From Bacteroidaceae bacterium (GTDB lineage Bacteria > Bacteroidota > Bacteroidia > Bacteroidales > Bacteroidaceae): a DNA stretch of 55,128 bases. The stretch lies in contig JAFXZK010000120.1 in NCBI GenBank assembly GCA_017541265.1, forward strand, positions 1 to 55,128. Direction: 5' to 3'. A program made the position numbers and the translations under genes. Below the pieces are notes generated by a model that saw only the letters and a program-made list of their open reading frames with translations, did no database searches and had not been told where the DNA came from. Below, piece after piece: positions 809 through 54,836 of the stretch; position 1 is the first letter of the stretch; each line of letters starts with the position of its first letter.

Positions 809-896
809 ATAAGTCCCCGTACTTATCCCGATAAGTCCCTGTACTTATCTCAATAAGTCCCTGTACTTATCCCGATAAGTCCCTGTACTTTTTTCA
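809..896. repeat. 22-bp dyad array, family A, locus A1 (4 units)
   Basis: Four head-to-tail 22-base units start at 809, 831, 853 and 875. Each has the core AAGNNC-NN-GNNCTT, mostly as AAGTCC-CT-GTACTT, inside an 18-base imperfect dyad (ATAAG...CTTAT) followed by a 4-base spacer. The last unit ends in a T-run. It overlaps the stop codon of the U32 gene (894-896), so the array begins exactly at the end of that gene on the minus strand. Related arrays lie at 10709, 48746 and 54727. Confidence 0.9.
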
Positions 897-2162
897 GCAG
901 GACCGAGTGTCGGTTGAAGGCTTGATAATGAAGAGCTTGTCGTTATGGCGCACTTTCGTCTGCAAGGGGATGCTGATGTGCTGGCCTTGCTGGGCGACTT
1001 GCACGGGTTTGAGGTCGTAGCGAATCTCGCTGACGGTGGCGCGGAGAGCACCGGTGGTGGGGCCTGTCACCATGATGTCGTCGCCCACGCTGAGTTCGCA
1101 GGCTTCTATCTTGAACTCTGCCACCTGCAGCTTCGAGTAGTAGCGCACGGCGCGTCCGCAATAGACCTTGCGCTCCGTCGCCTTCGAACCGTGGCAGTCG
1201 TTCCACTCCATGATGGTCTTGCCCTGATAGTAGCCGTCCCAGAAGCCTCGGTTGAAAACCTTCGCCAGGCGCTCGTCCCATTCGTCGAGCCTTTTCAGAA
1301 AAGCTTCCTTACCCTCGTCGGGGTTGCAGAGCGTATCGATGGCCTCGCGGTAGCAGCGCACGACGGTATCGACGTATTCCGGCCCTCTTGCCCTGCCCTC
1401 TATCTTGAACACGCGCACGCCCGCATCAATCATTTTGTCGATGAAACGGATGGTTTTGAGGTCGCGGGGCGACATGATGTACTTGTTCTCGATGTCGAGT
1501 TCCGTGCCCGTTTCTACGTCCTGCACCGTGTAGCGGCGACGGCAAAGCTGCATGCACTCGCCCCGGTTGGCGGAGCGTCCCCAGTTGCTCTGGCTCAGGT
1601 AGCACTTGCCGCTGATGGCCATGCAGAGCGCACCGTGGCAGAACATCTCGATGCGGACGGGCTTTCCGCTCGGCCCGCAGATGCCATATTTCTCGATGGA
1701 ATGGGCGATTTCTGCAACCTGCTCCATGTTCAACTCACGGGCAAGCACCACCACGTCGGCGAACTGCGCATAGAACTTCAGCGCCTCCACGTTGCTGATG
1801 TTGAGCTACGTGCTCAGGTGAACTTCCTGCCCTATCTCGCGACAATAGAGCATCACCGCCACGTCACTCGCAATGACTGCCGTGATGCCTGCGGCTTTGG
1901 CAGCGTCGAGGATGGTGCGCATCAGTTCGAGGTCCTCGCCGTAGATAATCGTGTTGACGGTCAGGTAGCTTTTGATGCCGAAACGCCTTGTCTCCTCGGC
2001 AATGCGTTTGAGGTCATCGATGGTGAATGTGCTGGCAGAATGTGCCCGCATGTTCAGGTTCTCGATACCGAAGTAGATGCTGTCCGCACCGGCTCTTATG
2101 GCAGCCGCCAAGCACTCGGGCGAACCCACCGGAGCCATGATTTCTATGTCTTGTTTCCTCAT
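894..2162 (-). pseudogene. U32-family protein (TrhP/RlhA-like), interrupted by one in-frame amber codon
   Basis: Members of this family are Fe-S proteins acting in tRNA or rRNA hydroxylation, though they were first named peptidases. The N-terminal part (2162-1809) has IMAPVGSPECLAAAIRAGAD. The rest has the HGALCMAISGKC and RGECMQLCRRRY cysteine motifs expected to hold the cluster, then RGPEYVDTVVRCYREAID. The reading frame is continuous except for TAG at 1806-1808, where the family has a conserved Gln in the STQ motif (VHLST-stop-LNISNVEALKF). One C-to-T change (CAG to TAG) accounts for it. Without the stop the protein would be about 422 residues, a normal length. No other damage is visible, which suggests a recent mutation, readthrough or a sequencing error. 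MRKQDIEIMAP at 2162 is chosen as the start. Confidence 0.85.
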
Positions 2163-2170
2163 TTCGTCTG

Positions 2171-2178
2171 CAAATTTA
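2171..2178 (-). promoter_or_regulatory. Candidate -7 element of the U32 gene
   Basis: TAAATTTG on the minus strand matches TAnnTTTG. It lies only about 9 bases upstream of the chosen start, which would give a very short leader. Confidence 0.35.
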
Positions 2179-2228
2179 CGACTTTTTCCAGCATTCCGCA
2201 AAAATTATGAATTATGAATTAATTGTCG

Positions 2229-2236
2229 TACCTTTG
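2229..2236 (+). promoter_or_regulatory. -7 promoter element of metK
   Basis: TACCTTTG lies just upstream of the riboswitch candidate, so the transcript would begin near 2243 and carry the whole aptamer in a leader of about 145 bases. Confidence 0.6.
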
Positions 2237-2251
2237 CAGCCGCAAAAACAA

Positions 2252-2306
2252 CATGTGGACAGATTTGGGCTGCTTGCAACCACAGTAAAAAATGCTAAAA
2301 CGAGGA
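2252..2306 (+). ncRNA. Probable SAM-II riboswitch in the metK leader
   Basis: The leader has the order of conserved elements of the SAM-II (metA) aptamer. P1 pairs TGTGG (2254-2258) with CCACA (2280-2284). The loop holds GATTT (2262-2266) and ends in TTGCAA (2274-2279). After P1 comes an A-rich stretch and GCTAAAA (2294-2300), then CGAGG. TTGC can pair across the loop with GCTAA to make the pseudoknot; the T at 2296 is then where the SAM-contacting uridine of known SAM-II structures lies. Its place upstream of SAM synthetase fits feedback control by SAM. The switch could act by masking downstream sequence, because GAGGAA (2302-2307) can also pair with TTCCTC (2318-2323). Confidence 0.72.
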
Positions 2307-2389
2307 AAGCCGAAGGGTTCCTCACGCATTTGTGCCTGACTTCTTTCCCCATACATTATTAATATTAATTATATAAAATTAATTCTATT

Positions 2390-3652
2390 ATGGGCTATTT
2401 GTTTACATCGGAGTCAGTCTCCGAAGGCCATCCCGACAAGGTGGCCGACCAAATCAGCGATGCAGTGCTGGACAAACTTCTTGCCTTCGACCCCGACTCG
2501 AAGGTGGCTTGCGAAACACTCGTTACGACGGGACAGGTGGTGCTGGCAGGCGAAATCAAGACAAAGGCTTACGTCGATCTGCAACGCATCGCTCGCGAAG
2601 TCATCAACCGCATCGGCTACACGAAGAGCGAGTACATGTTCGAGGGCAACAGCTGCGGTGTGCTCTCTGCCATTCACGAGCAGAGCGCCGACATCAACCG
2701 AGGCGTTGACCGCACAGACCGCGCGCAGCAGGGTGCCGGCGACCAGGGCATGATGTTCGGCTACGCTACCAACGAGACCGACAACTACATGCCGCTCTCC
2801 CTCGACCTGGCGCACCGTCTGCTCCAGACCCTTGCCGACATCCGCCGCGAAGGCCAGGTGATGACCTACCTGCGCCCCGACGCCAAGAGTCAGGTCACCA
2901 TCGAATACAACGAACAAGGCGTGCCTCAGCGCATCGACACCATCGTGGTATCGACCCAGCACGATGAGTTCGACACCGACGAGGCCATGCAGCAGCGCAT
3001 CGCCCACGACGTCAAGGAGATACTCGTGCCCCGCATGCTCGAGGGCATCCGCTCGGAGCGCGTCCGCAGCCTCTTTGCCGATGCCGCCTCCATCACCTAT
3101 TACGTCAACCCGACCGGCAAGTTCGTCATCGGCGGCCCCCACGGCGATACGGGTCTCACGGGCCGCAAGATTATCGTCGATACCTATGGCGGCAAGGGCG
3201 CACATGGCGGTGGTGCCTTCAGCGGCAAAGACCCCTCGAAGGTCGATCGCTCGGCAGGCTACGCCGCACGCCACATCGCAAAGAACATGGTGGCAGCTGG
3301 CGTGGCAGACGAAATGCTCGTTCAGCTCAGCTATGCCATCGGTGTGGCAGAACCCGTCAGCATCTTTGTCGATACCTATGGCAAGAGCCACGTCGGCCTT
3401 TCCGACGGCGAGATAGCCGAGAAGATAAAGAGCCTCTTCACCCTCACCCCATACGCCATCGAGCAGCGCCTCAAGCTGCGCAACCCCATCTACGAGGAGA
3501 CGGCAGCCTACGGCCACATGGGCCGCGAGCCGCGCACCGTCACGAAGCGGTTCGAGTCGCTCTATCACGAGACGAAGGAGGTGACGGTCGAACTCTTCAC
3601 TTGGGAGAAGCTCGACTATGTAGAGAAGATAAAGGAAGCTTTCTCCCTATAA
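2390..3652 (+). CDS. metK: S-adenosylmethionine synthetase
   Basis: This cytosolic enzyme makes SAM from methionine and ATP, releasing phosphate and diphosphate. The 420-residue protein spans the family's three domains. GHPDK (residues 13-17) is the ATP/metal motif, [12 protein letters not shown] begins at residue 115, and the glycine-rich GGGAFSGKD motif near 272-280 is intact. The start at 2390 follows an A/T-rich leader without a strong Shine-Dalgarno site, as is usual in this phylum. The leader carries a probable SAM-II riboswitch. The next gene follows after 9 bases, so metK is likely the first gene of the run to about 6421. Confidence 0.97.
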
Positions 3653-3661
3653 CTATGAACT

Positions 3662-4258
3662 ATGGACAATTTTGAATTAAATAAGCGGGTTGCCGTCTAT
3701 TGTGCCAGCAGCACGCAGATAGACGAAAGGTACTTTCAGGATGCACGAAAGCTTGGCCAGTTGATGGCAGAGCAAAACATAACATTGGTGAATGGCGCGG
3801 GCAACATGGGGCTTATGGCAGAGAGTGCCAACGGCTGCCTTGAGGCTGGCGGCAAAGCCATTGGCGTCATCCCCACCTTTATGATAAAGGAGGGCTGGTG
3901 CCACGACGGCATGACCGAAATCATCGAGACTGCCGACATGCATGAGCGGCAAGCCAAGATAGCTGAGATAACCGATGCAGGCATCTTCCTGCCGGGCGGC
4001 ATCGGCACCTTCGCAGAGATGACGGAGCTCATCGTGTGGAAACAGCTTGGGCTTTACTTGAAGCCCATCATACTGCTTAACACAGGCGGCTATTTCGATG
4101 CCCTGCTCAATACCTTGCACCAAGCCATCAAGGAGAATTTCATGCGCCCAGTGCATGCTGATATCTGGCAGGTTGCTGCCAAACCGGAGGACGCATTGAG
4201 GCTGGCACTCGAGACACCTCTTTGGGACACGAGCATCCGCCGTTTCGCCAAGATATGA
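3662..4258 (+). CDS. LOG-family Rossmann protein (TIGR00730)
   Basis: This is a 198-residue member of the LOG family, whose characterised members are cytokinin riboside 5'-monophosphate phosphoribohydrolases; the bacterial ones release a base from a nucleotide 5'-phosphate. GAGNMGLMA (from about residue 45) is the nucleotide-binding loop and PGGIGTFAEMTE (from about 111) is the PGGxGTxxE signature with its active-site Glu. The gene starts 9 bases after metK and its stop overlaps the start of the next gene (ATGA), so it is translated from the same transcript. The natural substrate in this organism is not known. Confidence 0.85.
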   Translation: MDNFELNKRVAVYCASSTQIDERYFQDARKLGQLMAEQNITLVNGAGNMGLMAESANGCLEAGGKAIGVIPTFMIKEGWCHDGMTEIIETADMHERQAKIAEITDAGIFLPGGIGTFAEMTELIVWKQLGLYLKPIILLNTGGYFDALLNTLHQAIKENFMRPVHADIWQVAAKPEDALRLALETPLWDTSIRRFAKI

Positions 4259-5034
4259 TTGCCCCTTACGACACGTGCAGCTTCTTTCGGGACGACACTC
4301 TGCTTCATGCGGAAGTGTCGTATCATCCCTTTGGCTTCGCAGCAACCGACACGCCCTTCCGCCTGCGCAACGATGCGTGGAGTGGTGTGCTGTTGCTTGT
4401 CTGCCTGCTGCTTGCGGCAAGTCTCGTGCTGAGGCTAAGCAAGAAGTTCAAGGAGCTGTTGCGAGGTGTGTTCTTCCCCATACCTGGCAAGATGGACGAG
4501 CCAGTTGTGGACGATCCGCTCCGCTACTCAACGCGCCTCGTGGCTGTCTGCCTCCTTTCGCTTACAGCCGCGATAGTGACCTTTATCTACACACAGCACG
4601 ATGTCGGCTTCTACCTGTTCCCCGAGACACCCTACATCATGTTCGGTGCCTTCTTCCTGCTTTGGATTGTCTATTTCCTGGTGAAGAGGGTGACGAACAG
4701 CTTCGTTAATTGGATATTCTTTCGCAAGGAAAAAATCTTTACATGGCAACGGGCTTACACGTTTCTTCTTGTGTCGGAATCCGTGCTTTTCCTCATCTTT
4801 GCCGTTGTCGTGGCATATCTGCCCGTCTCTGCTGAAATGTTGTCCCTTTTGGCACTTCTGCTTATCGTTTTGGTCAAGATAGTACTTCTTTTTAAGACAT
4901 ATCAGATATTTTTTCCAAAAATGTATGGCACTTTGCATTTAATTGTGTACTTTTGCACACTCGAATTGATGCCGCTGCTTGTGCTACAGCAAATGCTGGC
5001 CTATGCAGAGTGCCTTTCGGTGATAAAACTATAG
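4255..5034 (+). CDS. DUF4271 integral membrane protein
   Basis: This is a 259-residue protein of unknown function with about six hydrophobic segments, including VLLLVCLLLAASLVL near 40-55, LVAVCLLSLTAAIVTFIY, MFGAFFLLWIVYFLV, and two near the C-terminus. It resembles the DUF4271 family, which is common in Bacteroidetes next to hemD. The ATG at 4255 overlaps the preceding stop (ATGA) and is preferred to an earlier in-frame ATG at 4222 inside the LOG gene. It ends with TAG, 20 bases before hemD. Confidence 0.8.
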   Translation: MIAPYDTCSFFRDDTLLHAEVSYHPFGFAATDTPFRLRNDAWSGVLLLVCLLLAASLVLRLSKKFKELLRGVFFPIPGKMDEPVVDDPLRYSTRLVAVCLLSLTAAIVTFIYTQHDVGFYLFPETPYIMFGAFFLLWIVYFLVKRVTNSFVNWIFFRKEKIFTWQRAYTFLLVSESVLFLIFAVVVAYLPVSAEMLSLLALLLIVLVKIVLLFKTYQIFFPKMYGTLHLIVYFCTLELMPLLVLQQMLAYAECLSVIKL

Positions 5035-5054
5035 CAGAAAAACTACGACAGACG

Positions 5055-5798
5055 ATGATAAAGAAGATACTCATCTCGCAGCCGGAGCCTATCTCGGCTA
5101 ATTCTCCTTACTATGACATTGCAAAGCGTCATAATGTGGAGATTGTGTTCCGCCCCTTCATTAAGGTGGAGCCGTTGACACCGAAGGAGTTCCGCGCACA
5201 GAAGATTTCCATATTGGAGCACACCGCCATCGTGTTCACGTCGCGCCTCTCGATTGACAATTTCTTCCTTCTCGCCAAGGAGATGCGCATTCCTATACCA
5301 GAGGACATGAAGTACTTCTGCATCACCGAGACTGTGGCACAGTACATCCAGAAGTATGTGCAGTACCGCAAACGCAAGGTCTTCTTCGGCACAACCGGCA
5401 AGATAGACGACTTGCTGCCCACGATGATAAAGCACAAGTCGGAGCGCTACTTCATCCCCTTGAGCGACGTACACAATCCTGTTTTCAGCGATTTGCTTGA
5501 CAGCAAGGGCATCAAGCACTCGGACGCCATCATGTACCGTACCGTCAGCAACGATTTCAAGGAGGGTGAGCCATTCGACTACGACATGCTCATCTTCTTC
5601 AGCCCCAGCGGTGTGCAGTCGTTGAAGAAGAACTTCCCCAAGTTCAAGCAAGGCGACATCGTCATCGGTACGCTCGGTCCCGCAACGGCCAAGGCAGTCC
5701 GCGATGCTGGTCTGCGCCTTGACATCGAAGCTCCCTCTCCCCAGTACCCCAGTATTTCCGCAGCCATCGACGACCATCTGCGCAAGGCAAATGGATAG
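5055..5798 (+). CDS. hemD: Uroporphyrinogen-III synthase
   Basis: This enzyme closes hydroxymethylbilane to uroporphyrinogen III in tetrapyrrole synthesis. The 247-residue protein has the weakly conserved two-domain form: VFTSRLSIDNFF near residues 60-70 and FFSPSGVQSLKKNF near 185, followed by GTLGPATAKAVRDAGL. Start 5055 (MIKKILISQPEP) is chosen over the upstream ATG at 4953, which lies in DUF4271. It overlaps rnpA by 8 bases. The other haem genes are not in the window. Confidence 0.88.
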   Translation: MIKKILISQPEPISANSPYYDIAKRHNVEIVFRPFIKVEPLTPKEFRAQKISILEHTAIVFTSRLSIDNFFLLAKEMRIPIPEDMKYFCITETVAQYIQKYVQYRKRKVFFGTTGKIDDLLPTMIKHKSERYFIPLSDVHNPVFSDLLDSKGIKHSDAIMYRTVSNDFKEGEPFDYDMLIFFSPSGVQSLKKNFPKFKQGDIVIGTLGPATAKAVRDAGLRLDIEAPSPQYPSISAAIDDHLRKANG

Positions 5799-6180
5799 CG
5801 TCGGCTCACACACCTTTCGTAAAGCAGAGCGTCTATGCAGCCGCAAGGTGCTCGAAGAATTGTTCGGCGGCGGGCATCAGTCCGTGTCTGCCTACCCCAT
5901 TCGTGCCGTCTTCATGCCCAATGAGGAGGGGATGGTGCGCATCATGGTGTCTGTCTCGAAGCGTTATTTCAAGCGAGCCGTCAAGCGTAACCGCATCAAG
6001 CGGCAGCTTCGGGAGGCATACAGGTTGCAGAAGGAGACGCTTCTGCCACAGCTGCAAGGCGGGCTGGACATTGCCTTCCTCTGGACTTCCAACGAGGAGT
6101 TGCCCACCGAGAAGGTGTTCCAGAAGATGCAAAACATCTTGCAACGCATACAGGAGAGCGTAGTTAAAATTGAAAATTGA
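5791..6180 (+). CDS. rnpA: Ribonuclease P protein component
   Basis: This basic 129-residue protein assists the RNase P ribozyme in tRNA 5' maturation. The RNR signature is present as RAVKRNRIKRQLREAYR (from about residue 60), preceded by MVSVSKRYFK and followed by DIAFLWTS. Translation is probably coupled to hemD, whose stop lies inside this gene. The order hemD-rnpA-yidD-tatD is typical of Bacteroidales. The C-terminal VVKIEN is encoded by an A/T-rich ATTGAAA-type repeat at 6168-6196 that runs on into the yidD start region. Confidence 0.95.
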   Translation: MDSVGSHTFRKAERLCSRKVLEELFGGGHQSVSAYPIRAVFMPNEEGMVRIMVSVSKRYFKRAVKRNRIKRQLREAYRLQKETLLPQLQGGLDIAFLWTSNEELPTEKVFQKMQNILQRIQESVVKIEN

Positions 6181-6190
6181 TAGTTGAAAA

Positions 6191-6421
6191 TTGAAGGACG
6201 TAAGTCGTTTGATAGCGTGGCTGCTCATCCTGCCCATCCGTTTCTACCAGCGGTTCATCTCTCCGCTGACACCTCCGTCGTGCCGCTTCACGCCCACTTG
6301 CAGCCAATATGCTGTTGAGGCGTTGCAGAAGTACGGAGCGCTGAAAGGCTCGTGGCTTGCTGTGAAGCGCCTGCTTCGCTGCCACCCCTGGGGCGGCAGC
6401 GGTTATGACCCTGTGCCATAG
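6191..6421 (+). CDS. yidD: Membrane protein insertion efficiency factor YidD
   Basis: This small protein of 76 residues is thought to help YidC insert membrane proteins. It has the full family pattern: an N-terminal amphipathic helix ([20 protein letters not shown]), then the cysteine-rich [11 protein letters not shown], and [17 protein letters not shown] at the end. An in-frame stop at 6185-6187 and the lack of any ATG force the start to TTG at 6191. The stop TAG (6419-6421) lies within the first unit of repeat array B1. Confidence 0.93.
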
Positions 6422-6549
6422 GCACGTCTAAATGTCCAATTAGGCACACCTAAATGTCCAATTAGGCACACCTAAATGCCCAATTAGGCACGTCTAAATG
6501 TCCAATTAGGCACGTCTAATTTGCCAATTAGGTTAAGCTAATCAGAAAA
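6418..6549. repeat. 22-bp dyad array, family B, locus B1 (5 units plus a degenerate sixth)
   Basis: Units of 22 bases start at 6418, 6440, 6462, 6484 and 6506. Each has TTAGGCAC(G/A)(T/C)CTAA followed by ATGTCCAA or a close variant. The first begins ATAG and contains the yidD stop. A sixth, decayed unit (6528-6549) keeps TTAG and CTAA. The core reads AGNC-NN-GNCT, a dyad with C-NN-G at its centre except for the two GGCACACC units. The array fills nearly all the space between yidD and the next gene. Confidence 0.9.
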
Positions 6550-6553
6550 GACA

Positions 6554-7165
6554 ATGCTATATATCGACTTCCATACCCATCATATTCCTGCGGGACGGGA
6601 CGTTGTCGCCGTCGTTGACGGTCGCGACACCTGGGGCATACACCCGTGGCGGGCGGCAGAGGCTTTCGTCGTGCCAGACCTTTCGACGGTGTTTGCCATC
6701 GGTGAGTGCGGGCTGGACGGGGTACGAGGCCCTTCGATGGATGTGCAGGAGCGCGTGTTCCTGGAGCAGGTCAGGCTGGGCGAGCAGACGGGTAAGCCGC
6801 TCGTTATCCATTGCGTCAAAGCTCTCGACCGCCTCTTGAGCCTGCACAAAGCCCTGAAACCCCAGCAGCCCTGGATGTTTCACGGCTTTCGGGGCAAGCC
6901 CCAGCAGCTGCGTTCGCTCCTCGATTCGGGCTTTTATGTCAGCTTCGGCTTCCTGCACAACGAGGAGAGCCTGCGTATTTGTCCGGCAGACAGGCTGTTG
7001 CTCGAAACCGATGATGACAGCGAGCACCCGATAGCTGAATTGTATAATAATGTGGCACGCGAAAGGGGTATCGATGTGTCGACTTTGTGCGATGAAATGG
7101 CCGAAAACTATCGCGCTTTCTTCCGAAGGGAGCCTCTCGAAAGAGGTGAAAAGGTGAAAAATTGA
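6554..7165 (+). CDS. TatD-family metal-dependent hydrolase (short)
   Basis: This is a probable metallo-beta-barrel nuclease of the TatD family. Metal ligands appear in order: FHTHH (residues 6-10), GIHPW, IGECGLD near 50, VIHC near 86, MFHGFRG near 113 and LLETDDD near 155. At 203 residues it is clearly shorter than the usual 260, as are many Bacteroidetes members, but no motif is lost. It stands alone after array B1. Substrate (DNA 3' ends or other) cannot be told. Confidence 0.85.
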   Translation: MLYIDFHTHHIPAGRDVVAVVDGRDTWGIHPWRAAEAFVVPDLSTVFAIGECGLDGVRGPSMDVQERVFLEQVRLGEQTGKPLVIHCVKALDRLLSLHKALKPQQPWMFHGFRGKPQQLRSLLDSGFYVSFGFLHNEESLRICPADRLLLETDDDSEHPIAELYNNVARERGIDVSTLCDEMAENYRAFFRREPLERGEKVKN

Positions 7166-7230
7166 AAAGCTAAAAAGTGCTCGTCGGTACAAATACCGCT
7201 ATGGTGTGTTAAAAAGGCTTATAAAAAGGT

Positions 7231-7268
7231 ACTTTTCACCTTTTCATCTTTTCACCTTTTCATTTTTT
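7231..7268. repeat. 9-bp-period tandem repeat (TTTTCACCT type)
   Basis: A T/C-rich stretch repeats about every 9 bases (TTTTCACCT, TTTCATCTT and so on). It lies directly upstream of the -7 element at 7273, where a -33 box would normally be, so it may influence that promoter. It belongs to the 9-bp class described in the findings. Confidence 0.55.
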
Positions 7269-7272
7269 TTCG

Positions 7273-7280
7273 TATCTTTG
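7273..7280 (+). promoter_or_regulatory. -7 promoter element of the CoA-transferase gene
   Basis: TATCTTTG is a full match to the Bacteroidetes -7 consensus, 26 bases upstream of the start codon. No TTTG box is seen at -33. Confidence 0.7.
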
Positions 7281-7305
7281 TGCGCAAAATTTAACTAAAC
7301 ACATC

Positions 7306-8817
7306 ATGGACTTCAATAGAATTACCGCTGCCGAAGCTGCAGCCCTCGTCCAGAACGGACAAACCATCGGCCTGAGTGGTTTCACACCAGCAGGCGTCGC
7401 AAAGTGCACACCAGCAGAGATTGCAAAGAAAGCCCTCGCAGAACATGCTGCAGGCCGCCCCTTCAAGATTAGCATCTTCACAGGTGCCAGCACGGGCCAG
7501 AGCTGCGATGGAGACCTCTCCAACGCAATGGCAATCGACTTCCGCGCACCCTACACCACCAATCCCGACTTCCGCAAGAACGTCAACAACAACACCCTGA
7601 ACTACTCCGACCTGAACCTCTCGAACATGGCAACCCAGATTCGTCAGGGCTACCTCGGCCCCGTACACTGGGCCATCATTGAGGCTTGTGCCATAGAGAA
7701 GGTAGGCAACAAGGCACACATCTACCTGACGGCAGCCGGCGGCATCAGCCCCACCGTGTGCCGCCTCGCTACTGAGGGCATCATCGTGGAGCTTAACGCC
7801 TTCCACAGCCCCAACAGCAAGGGTATCCACGACGTGTATGAGATAGAGGACCACCCCTTCCGCACGCCCATCATGATTACGAAGGCAAGCGACCGCATCG
7901 GCAAGCCTTACGTGGAGGTGGATGCCGACCGCATCAAGGGCGTTGTGGAGTGTAACGTCCCCGACGAGGCCCGCAGCTTCAAAGACCCTGACCCCATCAC
8001 CACTCAGATTGGCCAGAATGTCGCCGACTTCCTGCTGCTCAACCTCAAGAAGGGTCTCATCCCGAAGTCCTTCCTCAATCTGCAGAGCGGCGTGGGCAGC
8101 GGTGCCAATGCTGTACTCGGCGCCCTCGGCCAGTGCCCCGAGGTGCCCAACTTCAACATCTACACAGAAGTGCTTCAGGACGCTCCCGTAGGTCTGATGA
8201 AGCAAGGTCGCGTGCTCTCCGCTTCGGCCTGCTCCCTGACCGTCACCAACGAGTGCCTGCTTGACATCTACGACAATATCGACTTCTTCAGGGACAAGCT
8301 TGTGCTGCGTCCCTCAGAGATAAGCAACTGCCCCGAGGTTATTGCCCGTCTCGGCGTCTGCGCCCTCAATACAGCCATCGAGTGCGACCTCTACGGCCAC
8401 GTGAACAGCACCAAGATTTGCGGCACGAAGATGATGAACGGCATCGGCGGCTCGGCGGACTTCGCCTCCAGCGCTTACCTGACCATCTTCACTTGCGGCT
8501 CCGTCACCAAGGGCGGCGCTATCTCCAGCATCGTGCCCTTCGCCAGCCACATCGACCACACGAACCATTACATCGACGCAGTCATTACGGAGTACGGCGT
8601 GGCCGACCTTCGCCATAAGAGCGACATGCAGAAGGCACAGGAACTCATCAAGGTGGCACATCCCGACTACCGTCCCATGCTGCAGGACTACCTGAAGTTC
8701 GCAGAGAAGCGCGGCGGCCATACCCACCACGAGCTGGCAGCAGCCTTCGCCATGCACGACACCTTCCTCCGCAAGGGCGACATGCATCTGACCGATTTTG
8801 CAGAGTACATAAAATAA
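7306..8817 (+). CDS. Acetyl-CoA hydrolase/transferase family protein (probable succinyl-CoA:acetate CoA-transferase)
   Basis: This 503-residue class I CoA-transferase probably moves CoA between acyl-CoA and a carboxylate such as acetate or succinate in fermentative acid metabolism. It has the Ach1/Cat1-type layout: RITAAEAAALVQNGQTIGLSG at the N-terminus, GSGANAV as the CoA-binding glycine loop (about residues 266-272), and Glu288 in YTEVLQD as the likely catalytic glutamate. GGSADFASSAYL and EYGVADLR in the C-terminal half are also typical. It is transcribed alone from the promoter at 7273. The exact acyl substrate is inferred from family only. Confidence 0.88.
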   Translation: MDFNRITAAEAAALVQNGQTIGLSGFTPAGVAKCTPAEIAKKALAEHAAGRPFKISIFTGASTGQSCDGDLSNAMAIDFRAPYTTNPDFRKNVNNNTLNYSDLNLSNMATQIRQGYLGPVHWAIIEACAIEKVGNKAHIYLTAAGGISPTVCRLATEGIIVELNAFHSPNSKGIHDVYEIEDHPFRTPIMITKASDRIGKPYVEVDADRIKGVVECNVPDEARSFKDPDPITTQIGQNVADFLLLNLKKGLIPKSFLNLQSGVGSGANAVLGALGQCPEVPNFNIYTEVLQDAPVGLMKQGRVLSASACSLTVTNECLLDIYDNIDFFRDKLVLRPSEISNCPEVIARLGVCALNTAIECDLYGHVNSTKICGTKMMNGIGGSADFASSAYLTIFTCGSVTKGGAISSIVPFASHIDHTNHYIDAVITEYGVADLRHKSDMQKAQELIKVAHPDYRPMLQDYLKFAEKRGGHTHHELAAAFAMHDTFLRKGDMHLTDFAEYIK

Positions 8818-10651: not shown

Positions 10652-10708
10652 TGTCTCTTCACCCCCAAAAGAAACAGGTTGAAAGACAAGCACATGCATT
10701 ACTGAAAA

Positions 10709-10796
10709 AAAAGAGCGTGTACTTGTGGCAATAAGTCCACGTTCTTCCGGCAATAAGAACGTGTACTTATGGGGATAAGAACGTGGACTTATGACA
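10709..10796. repeat. 22-bp dyad array, family A, locus A2 (4 units, inverted polarity)
   Basis: Units start at 10709, 10731, 10753 and 10775, each exactly 22 bases with the AAGNNC-NN-GNNCTT core. The A-run preceding the first unit corresponds to the T-run that ends the other family A arrays, so this one is in the opposite orientation. The core of unit 2 (AAGTCCACGTTCTT) is the exact reverse complement of that of unit 4 (AAGAACGTGGACTT). It lies between recJ and recQ. Confidence 0.9.
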
Positions 10797-10831
10797 ATAG
10801 GCACATGGGGTTCCCAGAAAGAGAAAAAGAG

Positions 10832-13968: not shown

Positions 13969-13971
13969 GGT

Positions 13972-14661: not shown

Positions 14662-14688
14662 TGTCTTCTTTTTTTTTGTTTATGTGTG

Positions 14689-19920: not shown

Positions 19921-19928
19921 CGATAGGA

Positions 19929-20016
19929 AATTAGGCACGCCTAATTGGCCAATTAGACGTGCCTAGTTTGCACACGAGACGTGCCTAGTTTGTCAATGAG
20001 GCACGCCTCGTTTTTT
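19929..20016. repeat. 22-bp dyad array, family B, locus B2 (4 units)
   Basis: Units start at 19929, 19951, 19973 and 19995, exactly 22 bases each. Their cores are AGGC-AC-GCCT (units 1 and 4) and AGAC-GT-GCCT (units 2 and 3). The outer arms change from AATT in unit 1 to CGTT in unit 4. The last unit runs into a T-run (20011-20017), the same polarity as the family A arrays. The array starts 9 bases after the beta-galactosidase stop, so the final GAGG...CCTC plus T-run could also act as a weak terminator. Confidence 0.88.
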
Positions 20017-32623: not shown

Positions 32624-32689
32624 TTGCTTCATCATGACAAAGCAATTGCTTGGTCATGATGAAGCAATTGCTTTGTCATGATGAAGCAA
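32624..32689. repeat. 22-bp dyad array, family C, locus C1 (3 units)
   Basis: Three 22-base units start at 32624, 32646 and 32668. Each is TTGCTT, ten bases centred on CATG, then AAGCAA. Unit 1 is the exact reverse complement of unit 3, and unit 2 differs from unit 3 by one or two bases, so the array is nearly its own reverse complement. The 66-base array recurs without change at 43456-43521. Confidence 0.92.
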
Positions 32690-32834
32690 TGGTAACTCCA
32701 CGCTGTGTTTTGGGGGAGGCCCTTTTTATGTTTATCTGCAACCCTTTCTTCCTTTCTTCCCTTCGGTCTGGCGCAGGTGGATGGTACATTTTATTCTTTG
32801 ACGATTACCAAGAGAAATAAAAGTGTTAAAAAGT

Positions 32835-43429: not shown

Positions 43430-43455
43430 GCAGCCAACACAGCACGCTCTTGTTA

Positions 43456-43521
43456 TTGCTTCATCATGACAAAGCAATTGCTTGGTCATGATGAAGCAAT
43501 TGCTTTGTCATGATGAAGCAA
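43456..43521. repeat. 22-bp dyad array, family C, locus C2 (3 units)
   Basis: Units start at 43456, 43478 and 43500. All 66 bases are the same as array C1 at 32624, although flanking sequence differs. The array lies 26 bases after the stop of the chitobiase-domain gene. Confidence 0.92.
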
Positions 43522-46196: not shown

Positions 46197-47717
46197 TTAG
46201 TTCATCGGTGCCTGTTTGCGCCGGTACAGACGATAGGTGACGGACTCCTGTTCCGGTGTGTAGAAGCTCTCAATGAACGTCCTTGTATATCCCAGCGTCC
46301 AAAGGAACTGCAACGGGTGCAGGAGGAATTCGACGCGTCGCGGGTTCACCGTCTCGCACACGAGGTCGTAGCCGTGCTTCAGGTCTGGGTGGAACGTGCC
46401 GTAGCATATCGGCTCTTCCGTCTTCATTACGAGGTACTTTGCCTGGCGCGACTCCAGGTAGGCCGTCTGCTCTGTGACAAGCTCTTCAACGTATGCGTTG
46501 GGCGTGACGAAGTACTTGATGGGTGGCAGGCAGTCGGTGAGGGTGTAGATGCCTGTGTCGTACGACCTGATTGTCAGCACCTGCTTCTCCGGGTCTTTGT
46601 CGGCGTTCACGATTTCTGCCAGAGGGAGGACAGCCTTTGGGAAGCAGTTGGAGAGAAGCGTCATGAGGTTGTAGTTTGTGCAGACGGCAAATGCTGTTAG
46701 CACGGTGGCGCATGCGGCGATGGCTGACCGCGACCGGACGCGCCGGACGAAGTATATCACAAGCGGCAAGAAGACATAGAGGATGAGAAAGTAGTAAATG
46801 AAGACACGGAAGAGGACGAACGTCAACAGCTGCGCACCCCAGCAGGCCGCCACCGCCAGCTTCACGTCGCGCGACATGCGCCAGGGCAGCACGGCACCCG
46901 TCAGCAAAGCCCAGCCAGCCCACTTCAGCGGTGCGAACCACCAGGTGGCATACACACCCGTGTTCCCCGCATCGACGTACCTGAAGAGGTTGAAGTGGAA
47001 ATAGGAATAGTAAAGGTCCTGCATGTTGCCATGTACGACAAAATACATCAGCACGCAGGCTGTGACACCTGCTACACCAGCTACAACCCATGCCAGGCAG
47101 CGCAGCAGAAGAGTTGTCTCTTTGCGACGCCAAGCCAGGATGAGCAGGGCGGTCAGCGCTCCCACGCACAGGGCAAGTAGCGTGAACTTCGTCCAGAAGA
47201 CGGCTCCCATGCCCGCGCCAAGGAGGGCGGCTTCCCATGCCTTGGGCAGCTCACCAAGCTTCGCATATCGCAGCGTCTTGTAAAGGACGAAAAGCAGAAC
47301 GGGCAGTGTCAGCTCCTCGGCGGTGTCTCCAAAGAACATGAAGTCGCATGTGTAGGTCAACACGCCCGCCATGCAAGTCGCAAGCAGGCTGATGCCATGC
47401 CCCGCAAACAGGCGCATTAGCCTGTAGGAGGCAGAGAGGAACCCGAAGCAGCAGAGTATCTCAAGTAGATAAATGCCGAAGAACGTCCTTGAAGACAATG
47501 CCGCGGCCCATTCATGCAGAAAGAAGATGACGGGACCTTTCTGGTCGTGGATTTCCGTGTAAAGCAGCTTGCCGGAGAGCATGCTCTTGCCGATTGCCAT
47601 AAACCAGTTGGCGTCGTCGTGCGGCTGCAACGGATAAATCCACGAGCAGCAGCTGAACAGTGTGATGAGCAGGGCTGCCAGCAGGAGCAGCGGCAGTGTC
47701 GTCTTACAGCCTTTCAT
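46197..47717 (-). CDS. GT-C-like polytopic membrane protein (probable glycosyltransferase)
   Basis: This 506-residue protein has about 11 membrane segments and, after the first, the extracytoplasmic QPHDDANWFMAIGKSMLSGK with an Asp-Asp pair, typical of GT-C enzymes that use polyprenyl-phosphate sugars. HDQKGPVIFFLHEWAA next resembles GT39-like proteins. A soluble C-terminal domain (about 370-500) follows. Its start overlaps the end of a GT2 gene by 14 bases, so the two are translationally coupled. The GT2 would make the lipid-linked sugar and this protein would transfer it. Acceptor unknown. Confidence 0.75.
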   Translation of the reverse strand: MKGCKTTLPLLLLAALLITLFSCCSWIYPLQPHDDANWFMAIGKSMLSGKLLYTEIHDQKGPVIFFLHEWAAALSSRTFFGIYLLEILCCFGFLSASYRLMRLFAGHGISLLATCMAGVLTYTCDFMFFGDTAEELTLPVLLFVLYKTLRYAKLGELPKAWEAALLGAGMGAVFWTKFTLLALCVGALTALLILAWRRKETTLLLRCLAWVVAGVAGVTACVLMYFVVHGNMQDLYYSYFHFNLFRYVDAGNTGVYATWWFAPLKWAGWALLTGAVLPWRMSRDVKLAVAACWGAQLLTFVLFRVFIYYFLILYVFLPLVIYFVRRVRSRSAIAACATVLTAFAVCTNYNLMTLLSNCFPKAVLPLAEIVNADKDPEKQVLTIRSYDTGIYTLTDCLPPIKYFVTPNAYVEELVTEQTAYLESRQAKYLVMKTEEPICYGTFHPDLKHGYDLVCETVNPRRVEFLLHPLQFLWTLGYTRTFIESFYTPEQESVTYRLYRRKQAPMN

Positions 47718-48654
47718 CTTTTATATTATAGCGCGGACGGCGCTTGACCTCCATGTATATCTTGCCGATATACTCGCCTACGGTGCCCAGGCCGATGAGC
47801 ACACAGCCACTGCAGAACCAGATGGACAGGATGAGCGACGACCAACCCGTGATGGCTTTCTGCTGGATGATGCAGACGATAACCCACACCAGGATGCCGA
47901 GGGCAATCAGTAGGAACAGGATGCCCAGCCAGAACACCATGTGGACGAGGCTCATGGAGAAACTCGTGATGCCGTCGAAGGCAAAGCTCAGCATCTTGGT
48001 CAGCGGGTATTTGCTCTCGCCTGCCTGACGCTCCTTACGGGCATACTCCACCTTTGCCGTGTTGTATCCCAGCAAGGGAACCAGTCCGCGCAGGAAGAGG
48101 TTCCGCTCTTCGTAGCAAAGCAAAGCCTCCACGGCGCGGCGCGACATGAGCCGGTAGTCGGCGTGGTTATAGACGGTCTTCACGCCCAATCGCGACATCA
48201 GGCGGTAGAAGGTCTGCGCTGTGGTGCGCTTGAACCATGTGTCGGTAGCGCGAGAACTGCGCACGCCATACACGATGTCGTTGCCCTCGCCTGCCAGACG
48301 CACCATGTCCGCGATGACCGTCTCGTCGTCCTGTAAGTCCGCGTCGATGGTCACGGTGAGGTCGGCAAAGCGGATGGCTGTCGAGAGGCCTGCTATCAAG
48401 GCATTCTGGTGACCGCTGTTGTGTGCAAGGTTGACGCCTGCTATGCGCCTGTCCCCGGCGTGCAGCCGTTCTATGATGTCCCATGTGGCATCGGCGCTTC
48501 CGTCGTTGACATAGAGAATCCTGCTGTCAGGGCTGACAGCCTCCTGCAAGTTTTCAAGTACGGCAAGCAGGTGCCGTGTGGTCTGTTCCAGTACCGCAGC
48601 TTCGTTGTAGCATGGCACGACGATAGCCAGACAAGGCTTTTTTCCGGTTTCCAT
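47704..48654 (-). CDS. GT2 glycosyltransferase, GtrB/DPM1-like
   Basis: This 316-residue protein probably makes a polyprenyl-phosphate-linked sugar on the cytosolic face. It has LAIVVPCYNEA (residues about 8-18), YVNDGSADAT, NSGHQNALIAGL and the DXD-type TIDADLQDDE near residue 97. Two C-terminal membrane segments (about 230-290) match GtrB-type enzymes. Start METGKK at 48654 is chosen; a longer frame from 48747 would include the promoter at 48682-48689. It is followed by the GT-C-like gene with overlap. Confidence 0.9.
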   Translation of the reverse strand: METGKKPCLAIVVPCYNEAAVLEQTTRHLLAVLENLQEAVSPDSRILYVNDGSADATWDIIERLHAGDRRIAGVNLAHNSGHQNALIAGLSTAIRFADLTVTIDADLQDDETVIADMVRLAGEGNDIVYGVRSSRATDTWFKRTTAQTFYRLMSRLGVKTVYNHADYRLMSRRAVEALLCYEERNLFLRGLVPLLGYNTAKVEYARKERQAGESKYPLTKMLSFAFDGITSFSMSLVHMVFWLGILFLLIALGILVWVIVCIIQQKAITGWSSLILSIWFCSGCVLIGLGTVGEYIGKIYMEVKRRPRYNIKDERL

Positions 48655-48681
48655 ATCTTTTCCTGTTCTGTCTCTTGTGTG

Positions 48682-48689
48682 CAAAAGTA
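48682..48689 (-). promoter_or_regulatory. Candidate -7 element of the glycosyltransferase pair
   Basis: TACTTTTG on the minus strand matches TAnnTTTG, 27 bases upstream of the start codon. Confidence 0.5.
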
Positions 48690-48745
48690 GAACAAAAAAA
48701 CCGAACTGCCAAGCATTTTGATGAAAAATGTGTTTACATGGTCTC

Positions 48746-48833
48746 AAAAGTCCCTGTACTTATCGTCAAAAGTCCCTGCACTTTTTGTCATAAGTCCGTG
48801 TACTTATTGCCATAAGTCCACGCACTTTTTGCA
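48746..48833. repeat. 22-bp dyad array, family A, locus A3 (4 units)
   Basis: Units start at 48746, 48768, 48790 and 48812, exactly 22 bases each with the AAGNNC-NN-GNNCTT core (AAGTCC-CT-GTACTT, AAGTCC-CT-GCACTT, AAGTCC-GT-GTACTT, AAGTCC-AC-GCACTT). The last ends in a T-run. It is the only family A array in a divergent spacer, between the glycosyltransferase and efflux operons. Confidence 0.9.
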
Positions 48834-48883
48834 GAATGACAAAAAAAAGCTGCTTTCCGGTGCTTTAATTCATGAAAAATGTT

Positions 48884-48891
48884 TATCTTTG
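48884..48891 (+). promoter_or_regulatory. -7 promoter element of the efflux operon
   Basis: TATCTTTG, 27 bases upstream of the adaptor start and about 50 bases after array A3. Confidence 0.7.
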
Positions 48892-48917
48892 CAAGTCGAA
48901 AAACAACAATTTACAAC

Positions 48918-50018
48918 ATGAAAAGCAATACTATGACCAGATGTCTGGTGCTCGGCGCGGTGCTCGGTTTGACATCGTGCGGGATAGACATGCCCGAGGA
49001 AGTGAAGACATCGTATGAGACGATGACAGTGAAGAAACAGGACATCACAGTGCCGATTAAATTCAGCGCCAAGCTGAAGGGACAGACCGACGTGACCATC
49101 ACGCCGCAGGTGAGCGGTCAGTTGATGCAGATCTGTGTGACCGAAGGCCAACAGGTGAAGAAGGGGCAAACGCTGTTTGTCATCGACTCGCGTAATGCTC
49201 AACTCGACCTTGAAGCAGCACAGGCGAACTTGGAGGCTGCGATTGCCTCAGAAAGCAGCGCCAAGCTGGAGTATGAGTCGAACAAGAACTTGTACGAAAA
49301 GAAGATTGTGAGCAAGTACATGCTCGACAATTCGGAGAACTCCTACAAACAGGCTCAGGCATCGGTGACACAGGCCAGAGCATCGGTGAACCGTGCCAAG
49401 GTGAACCTCGGCTTCTGCACCATCACGGCACCGGTGGCGGGCAGTATTGGCGAGATTCCCGTGCGCACAGGCGACCAAGTGTCTCCCTCTTCGTACTTGA
49501 CCATCGTCAGTGGCAACCAACAGATGAACGCAGAGTTCTCGATTGCGGAATCCATCTTGGAAGAAGCCATTGCCCAAGGCGTCAGCCCGAAGGCCGAGGA
49601 AGCCATGAAGCTATTCCCCGACGTGACTTTTGTAATGAAGAATGGTACGGAGTATCAGCACAAAGGCCGCATCACGAGCTTTACTGGCGTGGTGAACGCC
49701 ACGACGGGTACTATCGCCTGCAAAGCCACATTCCCCAATCCCGACGGTCAGCTCTATTCGGGCATTCAGGGTACGGTGGTGATTCCTGTCGATGAGGAGG
49801 ACGTAATCGTCATTCCTCAGGTGGCTGTGGTGAAGCTGCAGAGCAGGCAGCAGGTATATAAGGTGCAGCCTGACAGCACGGCAACGGCCATCGAAGTAAC
49901 AACGGAGGACGCTGGCAACGGTCAGGACTTCATCGTGAGAAGCGGCTTGAATGTTGGCGACAAGATTGTAACCGTGGGCGCCAACAATGTGCAGGAGGGA
50001 GAACAGGTTCTGTTCTGA
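48918..50018 (+). CDS. RND efflux periplasmic adaptor (HlyD/AcrA family) lipoprotein
   Basis: This membrane-fusion protein of 366 residues links the RND pump to the outer-membrane factor. It has a lipoprotein signal with a lipobox (LGLTSC), a lipoyl-like half (VSGQLMQICVTEGQQVKKGQ, with the partner NLGFCTITAPVAGSIGEIPV), a coiled-coil hairpin between them (about 95-155), and beta-barrel and proximal domains after. Start MKSNTMTRC at 48918 follows the promoter; the upstream ATG at 48879 precedes it. It is first in the three-gene operon. Substrate cannot be told. Confidence 0.93.
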   Translation: MKSNTMTRCLVLGAVLGLTSCGIDMPEEVKTSYETMTVKKQDITVPIKFSAKLKGQTDVTITPQVSGQLMQICVTEGQQVKKGQTLFVIDSRNAQLDLEAAQANLEAAIASESSAKLEYESNKNLYEKKIVSKYMLDNSENSYKQAQASVTQARASVNRAKVNLGFCTITAPVAGSIGEIPVRTGDQVSPSSYLTIVSGNQQMNAEFSIAESILEEAIAQGVSPKAEEAMKLFPDVTFVMKNGTEYQHKGRITSFTGVVNATTGTIACKATFPNPDGQLYSGIQGTVVIPVDEEDVIVIPQVAVVKLQSRQQVYKVQPDSTATAIEVTTEDAGNGQDFIVRSGLNVGDKIVTVGANNVQEGEQVLF

Positions 50019-53232: not shown

Positions 53233-53250
53233 AGATTAACGAATAAAGTT

Positions 53251-53300
53251 CGTTATCACATCATCTCGTTATTACGTTATCACGTCATTACGACATCAAT
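53251..53300. repeat. 9-bp-period ACGTTAT-type repeat downstream of the RND pump gene
   Basis: CGTTATCAC, ATCATCTCG, TTATTACGT, TATCACGTC and ATTACGACA follow at 9-base steps. CGTTATTACGTT is the exact complement of AACGTAATAACG before the pump gene. Confidence 0.6.
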
Positions 53301-53306
53301 AAATAA

Positions 53307-54677
53307 ATGACCATGAATTATAAAAATATATTCTTAGTTGCAACTGCGGGCCTTTTGCTTGCGAGTTGTGGCTTATACAAGAAGTACGAGCAGAAAACAG
53401 AAATCCCTGCCGACGTTATCGGTGTCACCGACCAGGCTGTTGCCCGCGAAGGGAGTACCGTCATGAGCTGGCGGGAGTTCTTTACCGACCCCTTGCTGCA
53501 AAAGCTCATCGAGCAGGCTTTGGCAAACAACACCGACCTCAACTCGGCGCGTATTGCCGTCGAGCAGAGCGAGGCATCGCTGAAAGCTGCCAAGCTGGCC
53601 TATCTGCCTTCGTTCAACCTTGCGCCGCAGGGCACAATATCAAGCTTTGACTACAGCAGGGCATCCAAGGCCTACAGCCTGCCTCTGCAAATGAGCTGGG
53701 ACGTCGATGTCTTCGGCACCATCACCAACAAGAAGCGTGCAGCGAAGGCCGTACTCCTGCAAGCCCAATGTTACGAGGAAGCCGTGCGCTCGAACCTCGT
53801 TAGCTCCGTCGCACAGCAGTACTTCATGCTGCAAGTGCTCGACCGGCAGCTGGAGATACTCATTTCCACCGACAGCCTCTGGAGTGCCTCGCTCGAGACA
53901 CAGAAGTCGCTTTGGGAGAACGGTAAGTCATATTCGACAGCCGTCAACCAGCTGGAGTCGTCGTGGTTGAGCGTGAAGACACAGATTGTCGATACGCGCC
54001 GAAGCATCCGAGCTACCGAGAATGCCATCTGCAGTTTGCTTGCCATCTCGCCGCAGCACATCGAGCGCACCCGCGGCGGCAACCAATCGTTGTTGCAGAG
54101 GGAGTTGAGCGTGTCGGCTGGGATGCTGGAGCATCGCCCAGACATCCGCATGGCAAACCATGCCATCGAGGAAGCCTTCTATGACACACAGACTGCCCGT
54201 GCCGCCTTCTTCCCGAACATCACCCTGTCCGGGACGCTCGGCTGGACAAACAGCGGCGGGGGAGCTGTCGTCAACCCCGGAAGCCTCCTGCTCAATGCCA
54301 TGGGGCAGCTTACGCAACCAATTTTCAATCGCGGCAGCCTGAGGGCAAACCTGAAAATTGCCAAACTGAACGAGGAGGACTTGAAGCGCTGGTATGTGCA
54401 GACCGTCATCGACGCTGGCAACGAAGTGAACGAAGCCCTTGCCGACTGCCAGTCCGCAGCCGAAAAACATGAATACTATCAGCGCCAGGTGGCTGTGCTT
54501 CACGATGCTTATATCGGCACCCACCAGTTGATGGACAACGGCAAGGCCATCTACCTTGAGGTGCTTACTGCCCAGGAGTCGCTGCTCTCTGCCCAGCTAA
54601 ACGAAGCCATGAACATGTACTCCGCCGCCAAAGCCGTAATTGCCCTCTACATTGCCCTCGGTGGCGGCTCCAAGTAA
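53307..54677 (+). CDS. TolC/NodT-family outer-membrane efflux lipoprotein
   Basis: This 456-residue outer-membrane channel completes the tripartite pump. It has a lipoprotein signal with a lipobox (LLLASC), then the repeated OMF structure: NNTDLNSARIAVEQSEASLKAA (about 73-95) and the second half HRPDIRMANHAIEEAFYDTQ (about 275-295), both heptad-rich helices, with LQMSWDVDVFGT and FPNITLSGTLGW as barrel strands. ATG at 53313 is an equally possible start. It is last in the operon. Confidence 0.93.
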   Translation: MTMNYKNIFLVATAGLLLASCGLYKKYEQKTEIPADVIGVTDQAVAREGSTVMSWREFFTDPLLQKLIEQALANNTDLNSARIAVEQSEASLKAAKLAYLPSFNLAPQGTISSFDYSRASKAYSLPLQMSWDVDVFGTITNKKRAAKAVLLQAQCYEEAVRSNLVSSVAQQYFMLQVLDRQLEILISTDSLWSASLETQKSLWENGKSYSTAVNQLESSWLSVKTQIVDTRRSIRATENAICSLLAISPQHIERTRGGNQSLLQRELSVSAGMLEHRPDIRMANHAIEEAFYDTQTARAAFFPNITLSGTLGWTNSGGGAVVNPGSLLLNAMGQLTQPIFNRGSLRANLKIAKLNEEDLKRWYVQTVIDAGNEVNEALADCQSAAEKHEYYQRQVAVLHDAYIGTHQLMDNGKAIYLEVLTAQESLLSAQLNEAMNMYSAAKAVIALYIALGGGSK

Positions 54678-54726
54678 AGGACTTGCCTTCAACGGTTTGT
54701 ATATTAAATGGTTAGCTGATGCCCCC

Positions 54727-54836
54727 ATAAGTTCGTGTATTTGTCGCCATAAGTCCGTGTTCTTATCGTCATAAGAGCGTGTTCTTATCTCCATAAGAAC
54801 GTGTTCTTATGGCTATAAGTACGGGGACTTTTTTGG
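54727..54836. repeat. 22-bp dyad array, family A, locus A4 (5 units)
   Basis: Units start at 54727, 54749, 54771, 54793 and 54815, exactly 22 bases each. Inner arm bases vary (AAGTTC, AAGTCC, AAGAGC, AAGAAC, AAGTAC) while AAG...C-NN-G...CTT is kept, with one deviation in unit 1. CCCCC (54722-54726) and GGGGG (54835-54839) enclose the array in inverted order, and the last unit has a T-run. It lies between convergent genes. Confidence 0.9.

Follow-up and report, generated by a model that had tools for sequence, protein, structure and literature searches.

Porphyromonas gingivalis belongs to the Bacteroidales, as does the organism studied here, a Bacteroidaceae bacterium known from GenBank assembly GCA_017541265.1. 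Its BrickBuilt element has been described as a strictly intergenic miniature inverted-repeat transposable element (MITE) with inverted ends and a 23-nucleotide tandem repeat, for which the authors predict long stem-loops (Klein et al. 2015, PMC4596501). BrickBuilt occupies 19 loci with 1 to 22.8 repeats, 16 of the 19 loci are kept between strains, and 22-nucleotide tandem repeats are mentioned for strain W83 (PMC4596501). We report here on a window of 55,128 nucleotides (contig JAFXZK010000120.1, the whole stretch of DNA that was analysed; contig 43 of an assembly of 3.24 Mb in 143 contigs, labelled G000 in the genome comparisons), which holds eight intergenic arrays of dyads repeated every 22 bp. 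What is new here comes from comparing such arrays across species: as far as sequence comparison can tell, they stand at several kept positions with replaced arms, as if a shared element had been rewritten in each species of this group of gut-type bacteria.

BrickBuilt resembles the 22-bp arrays in being found in Bacteroidales, strictly intergenic, and built of a short tandem repeat within a MITE with inverted ends. It differs in unit length (23 nucleotides against 22), in loci (19 against about 190) and in repeats (1 to 22.8 against mostly 4 to 5), the repeat units being compared by description. Neither arm replacement at kept positions nor mixed families in register was found in the available part of the BrickBuilt account (PMC4596501). 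An assignment of our arrays to BrickBuilt was rejected, as their unit is 22 bp long and the ends carried by arrays of a related genome (RUG837, see below) differ from those printed for BrickBuilt (PMC4596501). Our searches of open-licence full texts turned up no account of 22-bp dyad arrays whose arms are replaced at kept positions, BrickBuilt being the nearest.

Bacterial interspersed mosaic elements (BIMEs) are considered here alongside repetitive extragenic palindromes (REPs). REPs with their associated tyrosine transposases (RAYTs) are palindromes tagged GTAG or CGTC (PMC3733652), and REPs and BIMEs are, like our arrays, high-copy intergenic palindromes that form species-specific families and clusters. 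The 22-bp arrays differ from them by their contiguous, exact 22-bp step and by having no general tag, since the GTAG or CGTC tetranucleotide was found at the foot of the palindrome in 7 and 20 of 251 units, respectively. Tandem operator or iteron arrays are bound cooperatively by dimers; they share with our arrays contiguous stacking of dyads in a fixed register, which is indeed what we observe, and our arrays differ from them in occupying hundreds of loci per genome, with arms that vary between and within species. Finally, eukaryotic satellite DNA under concerted evolution has one dominant sequence per species, replaced between species while the architecture is kept. The 22-bp arrays have the same three properties and differ in being many tiny arrays dispersed among bacterial genes. 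Clustered regularly interspaced short palindromic repeats (CRISPR) were rejected, the 22-bp units being contiguous, with no spacers.

To detect arrays, we used a criterion that contains no arm sequence: at least 3 consecutive dyads at a fixed step, with a mean of at least 5.5 of 8 pairs. A first-pass annotation of this DNA had reported eight arrays, and the detector returned exactly these eight in the window, all at the coordinates given there, with 33 units (4+6+4+4+3+3+4+5) at an exact 22-base step. In 40 dinucleotide-preserving shuffles of the window, a mean of 0.15 arrays was found (maximum 1), and steps of 18, 19, 20, 21, 23, 24, 25 and 26 gave 0, 0, 0, 1, 0, 2, 0 and 0 arrays. With the threshold removed, a ninth chain appeared at 37164 (mean 5.25), within a gene, probably by chance. 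The step had also been taken to put every dyad on the same face of the helix. This holds roughly: at 10.5 bp per turn, a 22-bp step covers about 2.1 turns, and each unit is rotated by about 34 degrees against the one before. The eight arrays, whose neighbouring genes have no evident common function, are as follows.

807..896, family A array of 4 units plus a degenerate unit at 785-806; adjoins the stop codon of the minus-strand open reading frame (ORF) 894-1790
6414..6549, family B array of 6 units; between a short preceding ORF and the tatD-like gene 6554-7165
10707..10816, family A array of 4-5 units; between the recJ-like gene 8930-10651 and a recQ-like gene
19927..20016, family B array of 4 units with a T run at its end; 6 bp past the beta-galactosidase gene 15868-19920
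32624..32711, family C cassette of three 22-bp units, the middle one of GG..TG type, then an in-register D-type unit at 32690-32711
43434..43521, family C cassette with a D-type unit at 43434-43455 in register, then three units identical to 32624-32689
48744..48833, family A array of 4 units; between the divergent genes 47704-48747 (minus strand) and 48879-50018 (plus strand)
54725..54836, family A array of 5 units with a T run at its end; 47 bp past the outer-membrane efflux gene 53307-54677

Such arrays also occur outside the window. Twenty stretches picked by contig number alone (276 kb) contained 16 arrays, or about 190 per genome; the density is taken from these stretches only, because part of a larger 706-kb sample of G000 came from contigs already known to match. 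That sample yielded 55 arrays and 251 units, with 3-9 units per array (21 arrays with 4 units, 18 with 5). They are dispersed non-coding cassettes of 3-9 contiguous 22-bp imperfect palindromes, 39 of the 55 having 4 or 5. The first-pass annotation had named two findings that would refute it, confinement to the window and no enrichment of period 22, and neither applies. Enrichment of period 22 is present: 57 matches in the 706 kb compared to 0-9 at the other periods between 16 and 32, and 19 compared to 0-4 in 506 kb from genomes of the same genus. Period 33 gave 43 and 10 matches, respectively, because half-unit centres fall there. Eight genomes from other families of the order (139 kb) showed no enrichment (0 matches, compared to 0-4). 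The whole G000 genome has 117 strict family-A pairs and, with up to 1 mismatch allowed, 105 family-C units. Family A forms 27 arrays in the sample, 17 with 4 units, 9 with 5 and 1 with 3. Among the family-C matches listed, all 16 complete groups are threes, 15 of them with the same middle unit (the exception is C19:67569), which makes about 35 copies if all 105 units occur in threes.

A pattern scan of named genomes returned, among the matches listed, mainly "uncultured Prevotellaceae bacterium RUG837" and other Bacteroidales metagenome-assembled genomes (MAGs), one of them titled sheep rumen; RUG-named genomes are presumably rumen genomes. Since the proteins at the RUG837 loci have a median amino-acid identity of 79.6% with those of G000 (61 matches), RUG837 is probably a congener. 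A covariance model of the architecture, R1, had matches in 3 of 149 genomes of the order (G000, G041 and G156), a low count that says little because R1 recovers only 2 of the 8 window arrays, one of them in its training set. G041, a genome of a different family in the order, has a clean 22-bp array at G041:C14:76472-76557 (L196), with five units and CACGTG-like centres; a second locus of that genome, L193, was read as period 21. The G156 match consists of GC-rich palindromes, which may be terminators, and a match in an Anaerobiospirillum MAG (L109) was discarded, as there is no array there and it looks like chance.

A unit consists of an imperfect dyad, about 18 bp long, and a linker of about 4 bp. 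Because dyads also recur between units, at steps of 11, an array can be described as a series of 11-bp half-sites in alternating orientation, two half-sites that face each other making up a unit. The three arm families first distinguished (A, B and C) turned out to be too few, as we also found D (AACAC..GTGTT), E (TAAC..GTTA), F (CAGT.C..CC..GG) and H (CTTC.C..G.GAAG). When units of different families adjoin, they keep the register: 49 of 60 centre distances between families are 0 modulo 22, although these distances are not all independent, pairs of one array being counted repeatedly and C-D pairs being frequent. The two family-C arrays of the window are each flanked on one side by an in-register unit of another family (32690-32711 and 43434-43455), and two or three arm types share one register at L072, L080, L108 and L119 (MAGs RUG12512 and SRR8387719_bin.79). 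This strongly supports the view, already taken in the first-pass annotation, of one architecture with different arms. A C-NN-G centre is common, in 210 of 251 units in G000, 241 of 271 in RUG837, 38 of 47 in the related species G008, and 29 of 35 in RUG12512 and bin.79 together, compared to 7 of 66 in chains at other periods.

We then compared four close species, G000, G005, G008 and G012. The first 25 kb of the window is collinear, with coverage gaps, with stretches of the other three genomes. Three positions hold a 22-bp array in all four species: after the minus-strand gene 894-1790, before tatD, and before gene 20171. Both neighbours were verified in 10 of the 12 cases (the tatD site in all four species; the first site lacks G008, the third lacks G012). 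After the orthologue at the first site (807..896), differently armed arrays are found in G005, G008 and G012, the second neighbour being verified in G005 and G012. Differently armed arrays also occupy the tatD gap (6414..6549) in these three species. At the 19927 site, other arms lie in the same gap of G005 and G008, while in G012 the array precedes the same downstream gene, its other neighbour not being found. Sharing of 8-mers between arrays at the same site in different species (mean 0.007, 18 pairs) is no greater than between different sites in different species (mean 0.006, 36 pairs). Between different sites of the same species the mean is 0.280 (12 pairs; two of these give 0, as one of the G000 sites carries family A and the others carry B).

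The dominant core differs from species to species. Family A is present at 25.4 per 100 kb in G000 and at most 1.3 in the other three species, TAAC..GTTA at 21.7 in G008 and at most 0.5 elsewhere, GGTTAACC at 17.2 in G012 and at most 1.3 elsewhere, and CCCTATAGGG at 17.2 in G005 and at most 0.3 elsewhere. Species-specific dominant arms, together with arm replacement at kept positions, agree with the earlier proposal that the arrays are maintained by a common process. More generally, 12 orthologous gaps held arrays in both species, compared to 2.3 expected (126 comparisons in 5 species pairs; comparisons share sites, and a sixth pair, G005-G008, offered 2 gaps, neither with an array). When only gaps of non-negative length are counted, 12 had arrays in both species, 9 in one and 78 in neither. 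Two one-sided gaps were kept as scored, G012 C12:19102, which is AT-rich and probably false, and G012 C1:53793, where an array on the other side was probably missed. In 10 of 12 array-to-array comparisons between species, z ranged from -1.0 to 3.1, whereas the better flank of the 12 shared gaps gave z values of 10.9 to 42.9 in all 12, high in part because the flanks include coding sequence.

Outside these sites the record is mixed. In more distant genomes of the genus, no clear array was found at either of the first two positions (the first is borderline in G001, and G002 was covered at tatD only), the TatD matches in G004 and G010 being too weak to use. For the 54725 array, the best match in G005 is followed by a differently armed 22-bp array and the best match in G002 by none. 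At window positions 24290-24720, several small palindromes CGGATT...AATCCG stand where G008 (L152) and G012 carry 22-bp arrays, apparently in the same gap.

Arrays cluster at the 3' ends of genes. Measured from an array, the median distance is 23 bp for gene 3' ends and 134 bp for start codons, and G000 arrays occupy 30 tandem, 14 convergent and 10 divergent gaps, of 375, 62 and 62 gene pairs (a separate count gave 9 divergent gaps and the same numbers otherwise). None of the 54 placed arrays of G000 lies inside a predicted gene, some overlapping a predicted gene end by at most 62 bp; 4 arrays in G012 and 1 in G008 were called within predicted genes. Some gene boundaries are uncertain because genes were called by a simple script.

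Some arrays appear to be mobile. Of the 46 arrays in RUG837, 13 are bounded on both sides by inverted GATAATCCGCAAAA-like ends (GATARTCCGC, with up to 1 mismatch allowed in 10), 10 have one such end and 23 have none, compared to 1.4% of random 120-mers with an end of this type. The elements with both ends are 150-181 bp long, and 6 of the 13 have direct repeats of 7-11 bp (at most 1 mismatch) just outside, compared to 5% in re-paired flank controls. Like MITEs, the arrays of both genomes are short non-coding intergenic elements. Terminal inverted repeats are found at part of the RUG837 arrays and not at G000 arrays overall: no recurrent inverted end was detected in the G000 flanks beyond seven at family A, and the perfect 10-bp inverted repeats at 4 of 54 arrays have no common sequence. 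A downstream tail, within 60 bp, is common to 10 of the 27 family-A arrays (over the 706 kb its motif is seen 11 times altogether). The recJ-recQ array (10707..10816) has no counterpart in the corresponding gaps of G008 (22 bp) and G012 (51 bp), and inspection by eye of the recJ loci of other genomes of the genus revealed no array (the G007 locus ends early, and the neighbour differs in G005). The simplest reading is a recent gain.

The one strong RAYT-like Y1 transposase gene, G000:C49:17875-18213 (L125), lies amid GC-rich palindromes of its own, a second repeat system, and the 22-bp units near it amount to one family-B pair and do not reach an array of 3. Genomes G001, G002, G005, G008 and G012, all array-bearing, gave no Y1_Tnp match, and RAYT-driven REPs were rejected on these grounds.

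The reading we favour, tentatively and at somewhat less than an even chance, is that the arrays are dispersed dyad cassettes, similar to MITEs and REPs, that keep position and geometry as their arms are replaced, perhaps through a putative dimeric DNA-binding protein. The cassettes would spread as non-autonomous elements and would be retained at gene ends, where their phased dyads may be bound side by side by such a protein or a small family of them. A change within a lineage, either in the sequence preference of the protein or in the active cassette family, would then replace the arms at many loci and leave position and 22-bp geometry as they were. The takeover could proceed by newly active cassettes reusing the same sites, which needs no host function, or by site-by-site adaptation to a changed protein. 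Such arrays could plausibly act at transcript ends, as a boundary or as a roadblock in both directions, or else in packaging the DNA locally. A constraint on geometry at the DNA level fits the data best, most simply one or more putative dimeric proteins stacking every 22 bp. A stricter version, which we consider rather unlikely, is that the gene-end arrays are ancestral and that fast-changing dimeric proteins need only the 22-bp geometry, the arms being rewritten in each species to suit the current protein.

Several observations weigh against the favoured reading. Only three sites were traced across four species, with one neighbour verified in 2 of the 12 cases. Shared positions could be insertion hotspots and not a sign of retained function, and gap length is confounded with array presence. 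The recJ-recQ gap and several others hold an array in one species only, and neither in G005 nor in G002 is there a clear counterpart of the 48744 array before the best-matching gene. Nor are the arms wholly confined to one species: of 55 G000 arrays, 13 can be paired with a G012 array that has at least 20% of 8-mers in common (one B-like G012 array provides the six best pairings), minor families are shared (8 of 35 G012 arrays have a partner at this level in G005, and 6 of 35 in G008), and 2 of the 12 array pairs, with B against E-like arms, stand above background (z of 6.3 and 8.4). The 5 G005 arrays found by the detector have few 8-mers in common (0.014), probably because the dominant G005 arms escape it. 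The C-NN-G centre, at first ascribed to nearly all dyads, is present in only 38 of 142 units in G012 and 6 of 23 in G005. The RUG837-type end occurs in only 7 of 110 G000 flanks (at most 1 mismatch, about 0.6 expected), all at family A. Two RNA-level results given below, the folding of whole arrays and the matching outermost half-sites, belong to the same list. The trans-acting step is one that we infer, since no binding protein or transposase was found, the transposase having been looked for by an end-pattern search of G000 only. Of the first-pass interpretation as a whole, the single architecture and the fit with a common process stand, while its stacked, related dimeric proteins are putative; it had anticipated neither mobility nor clustering at 3' ends, nor that C-NN-G is not universal.

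The main rival is insertion hotspots without host function. The arrays would be purely selfish MITE/REP-like repeats, successive families of which land repeatedly in permissive gaps past gene ends or in older arrays, with no dedicated protein. We hold this to be possible, if doubtful. The MITE-like ends and possible target duplications at part of the RUG837 arrays speak for it, as do the common family-A tail, the approximately 35 family-C cassettes expected if all units come in threes, the lack of a recJ-recQ array in G008 and G012 and, by eye, at other loci, and the BrickBuilt precedent in P. gingivalis (PMC4596501). The lack of G000 arrays within genes is also what would be expected if coding insertions are purged. 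However, this explanation leaves the exact 22 bp and the common register of different families unexplained, does not easily account for an array beside the same three genes in four of four close species, and finds no recurrent inverted end at G000 arrays beyond the seven family-A flanks.

A second alternative, which we judge improbable, places the function in RNA: transcribed hairpins at 3' ends would terminate transcription or protect the mRNA end, so that structure alone matters and sequence drifts. The location past gene ends points in this direction. Whole arrays also fold strongly as RNA (mean z -6.6), as dyad arrays must, which is compatible with an RNA role, and T runs of at least 4 are found at 39 of 106 array ends, compared to 16% in array-free intergenic DNA. 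However, the T runs are about equally frequent in the two directions of transcription (23 of 58 and 16 of 48 ends), and directional intrinsic terminators were rejected for this lack of strand bias. Terminator-like matches in window positions 1-20000 do not exceed shuffles (18 compared to 17.8; one, at 19932-19965, lies on an array), and Rfam has a single match in the window, to a riboswitch that lies clear of the arrays. Mismatched pairs on the sense strand, G-T and A-C, number 58 and 46, 26 and 24, and 4 and 4 in three species; without a clear excess of the G-U-compatible type, RNA pairing is disfavoured as the constraint. Over the whole family-A array, mirror half-sites are not enriched (28 of 89, compared to 23.8±4.2 in shuffles), and selection for a whole-array hairpin was rejected. 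Only the outermost pair is enriched: outermost half-sites match in 14 of 27 arrays, compared to 7.4±2.3 shuffled, and are mostly of one type (GA, 35 of 54). Family-A units of G000 avoid the same variable dinucleotide in both halves (3 of 116, compared to 31.2±4.5 in shuffles), which also counts against this alternative. RNA-only function fits poorly, because T runs are undirected, there is no clear G-U bias, and locus-by-locus drift would not yield one dominant core per species.

The avoidance of identical halves could not be generalised. For all G000 units, identical half-sites number 11 of 251 compared to 27.9±4.3 expected, and the effect is absent in G012 (7 compared to 6.4) and weak in RUG837 (44 compared to 52.7±4.7), so that it was dropped as a rule. 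A general avoidance of self-complementary centres was dropped too, these being present in 45 of 251 units in G000 (28 of them AT) and 70 of 142 in G012.

The last alternative, that three or more unrelated regulators have tandem sites at their own target genes and share the 22-bp step by coincidence, was already disfavoured and is very improbable: the dyads with 8-9 bp arms do resemble dimer operators and family F is in divergent gaps in 3 of its 4 arrays, but there are some 190 arrays per genome beside genes of no evident common function, at 3' ends instead of promoters and with mixed families in register.

Some other features of the window were recorded. The riboswitch is of the SAM-II class (RF01726, 54.4 bits), at 2249-2308 on the plus strand, upstream of the S-adenosylmethionine synthetase gene 2390-3652. 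Two neighbouring large ORFs, 25502-32515 and 32938-39849, encode 2337 and 2303 amino acids, and their sole Pfam match at E 0.001 is a C-terminal dockerin type I. The gene of a Sel1-repeat protein (43655-44626, minus strand) holds 108-bp tandem repeats. Tandem runs of 8-9 bp (e.g. AGGTTATG, GAAAAGGT, TTAAGGTCC) were seen at 8817-8868, 7139-7177, 7232-7268 and 20028-20058; a TTAAGGTCC-like run lies past the 19927 array, and is likewise visible in G008.

Because sequence is replaced while position and geometry persist, similarity searches would miss the homology of these arrays, which a sequence-free test based on period and dyad symmetry finds. Rewriting of ancestral arrays to suit a changing protein, if true, would be a bacterial counterpart of the co-evolution of satellites with centromere proteins, or of PRDM9 with its sites. 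If the arrays are protein-driven, they would lead directly to the protein, and co-evolution of DNA and protein would be visible across many loci of one genus. If they are not, one would still have to explain why successive repeat families return to the same sites and share a 22-bp build.

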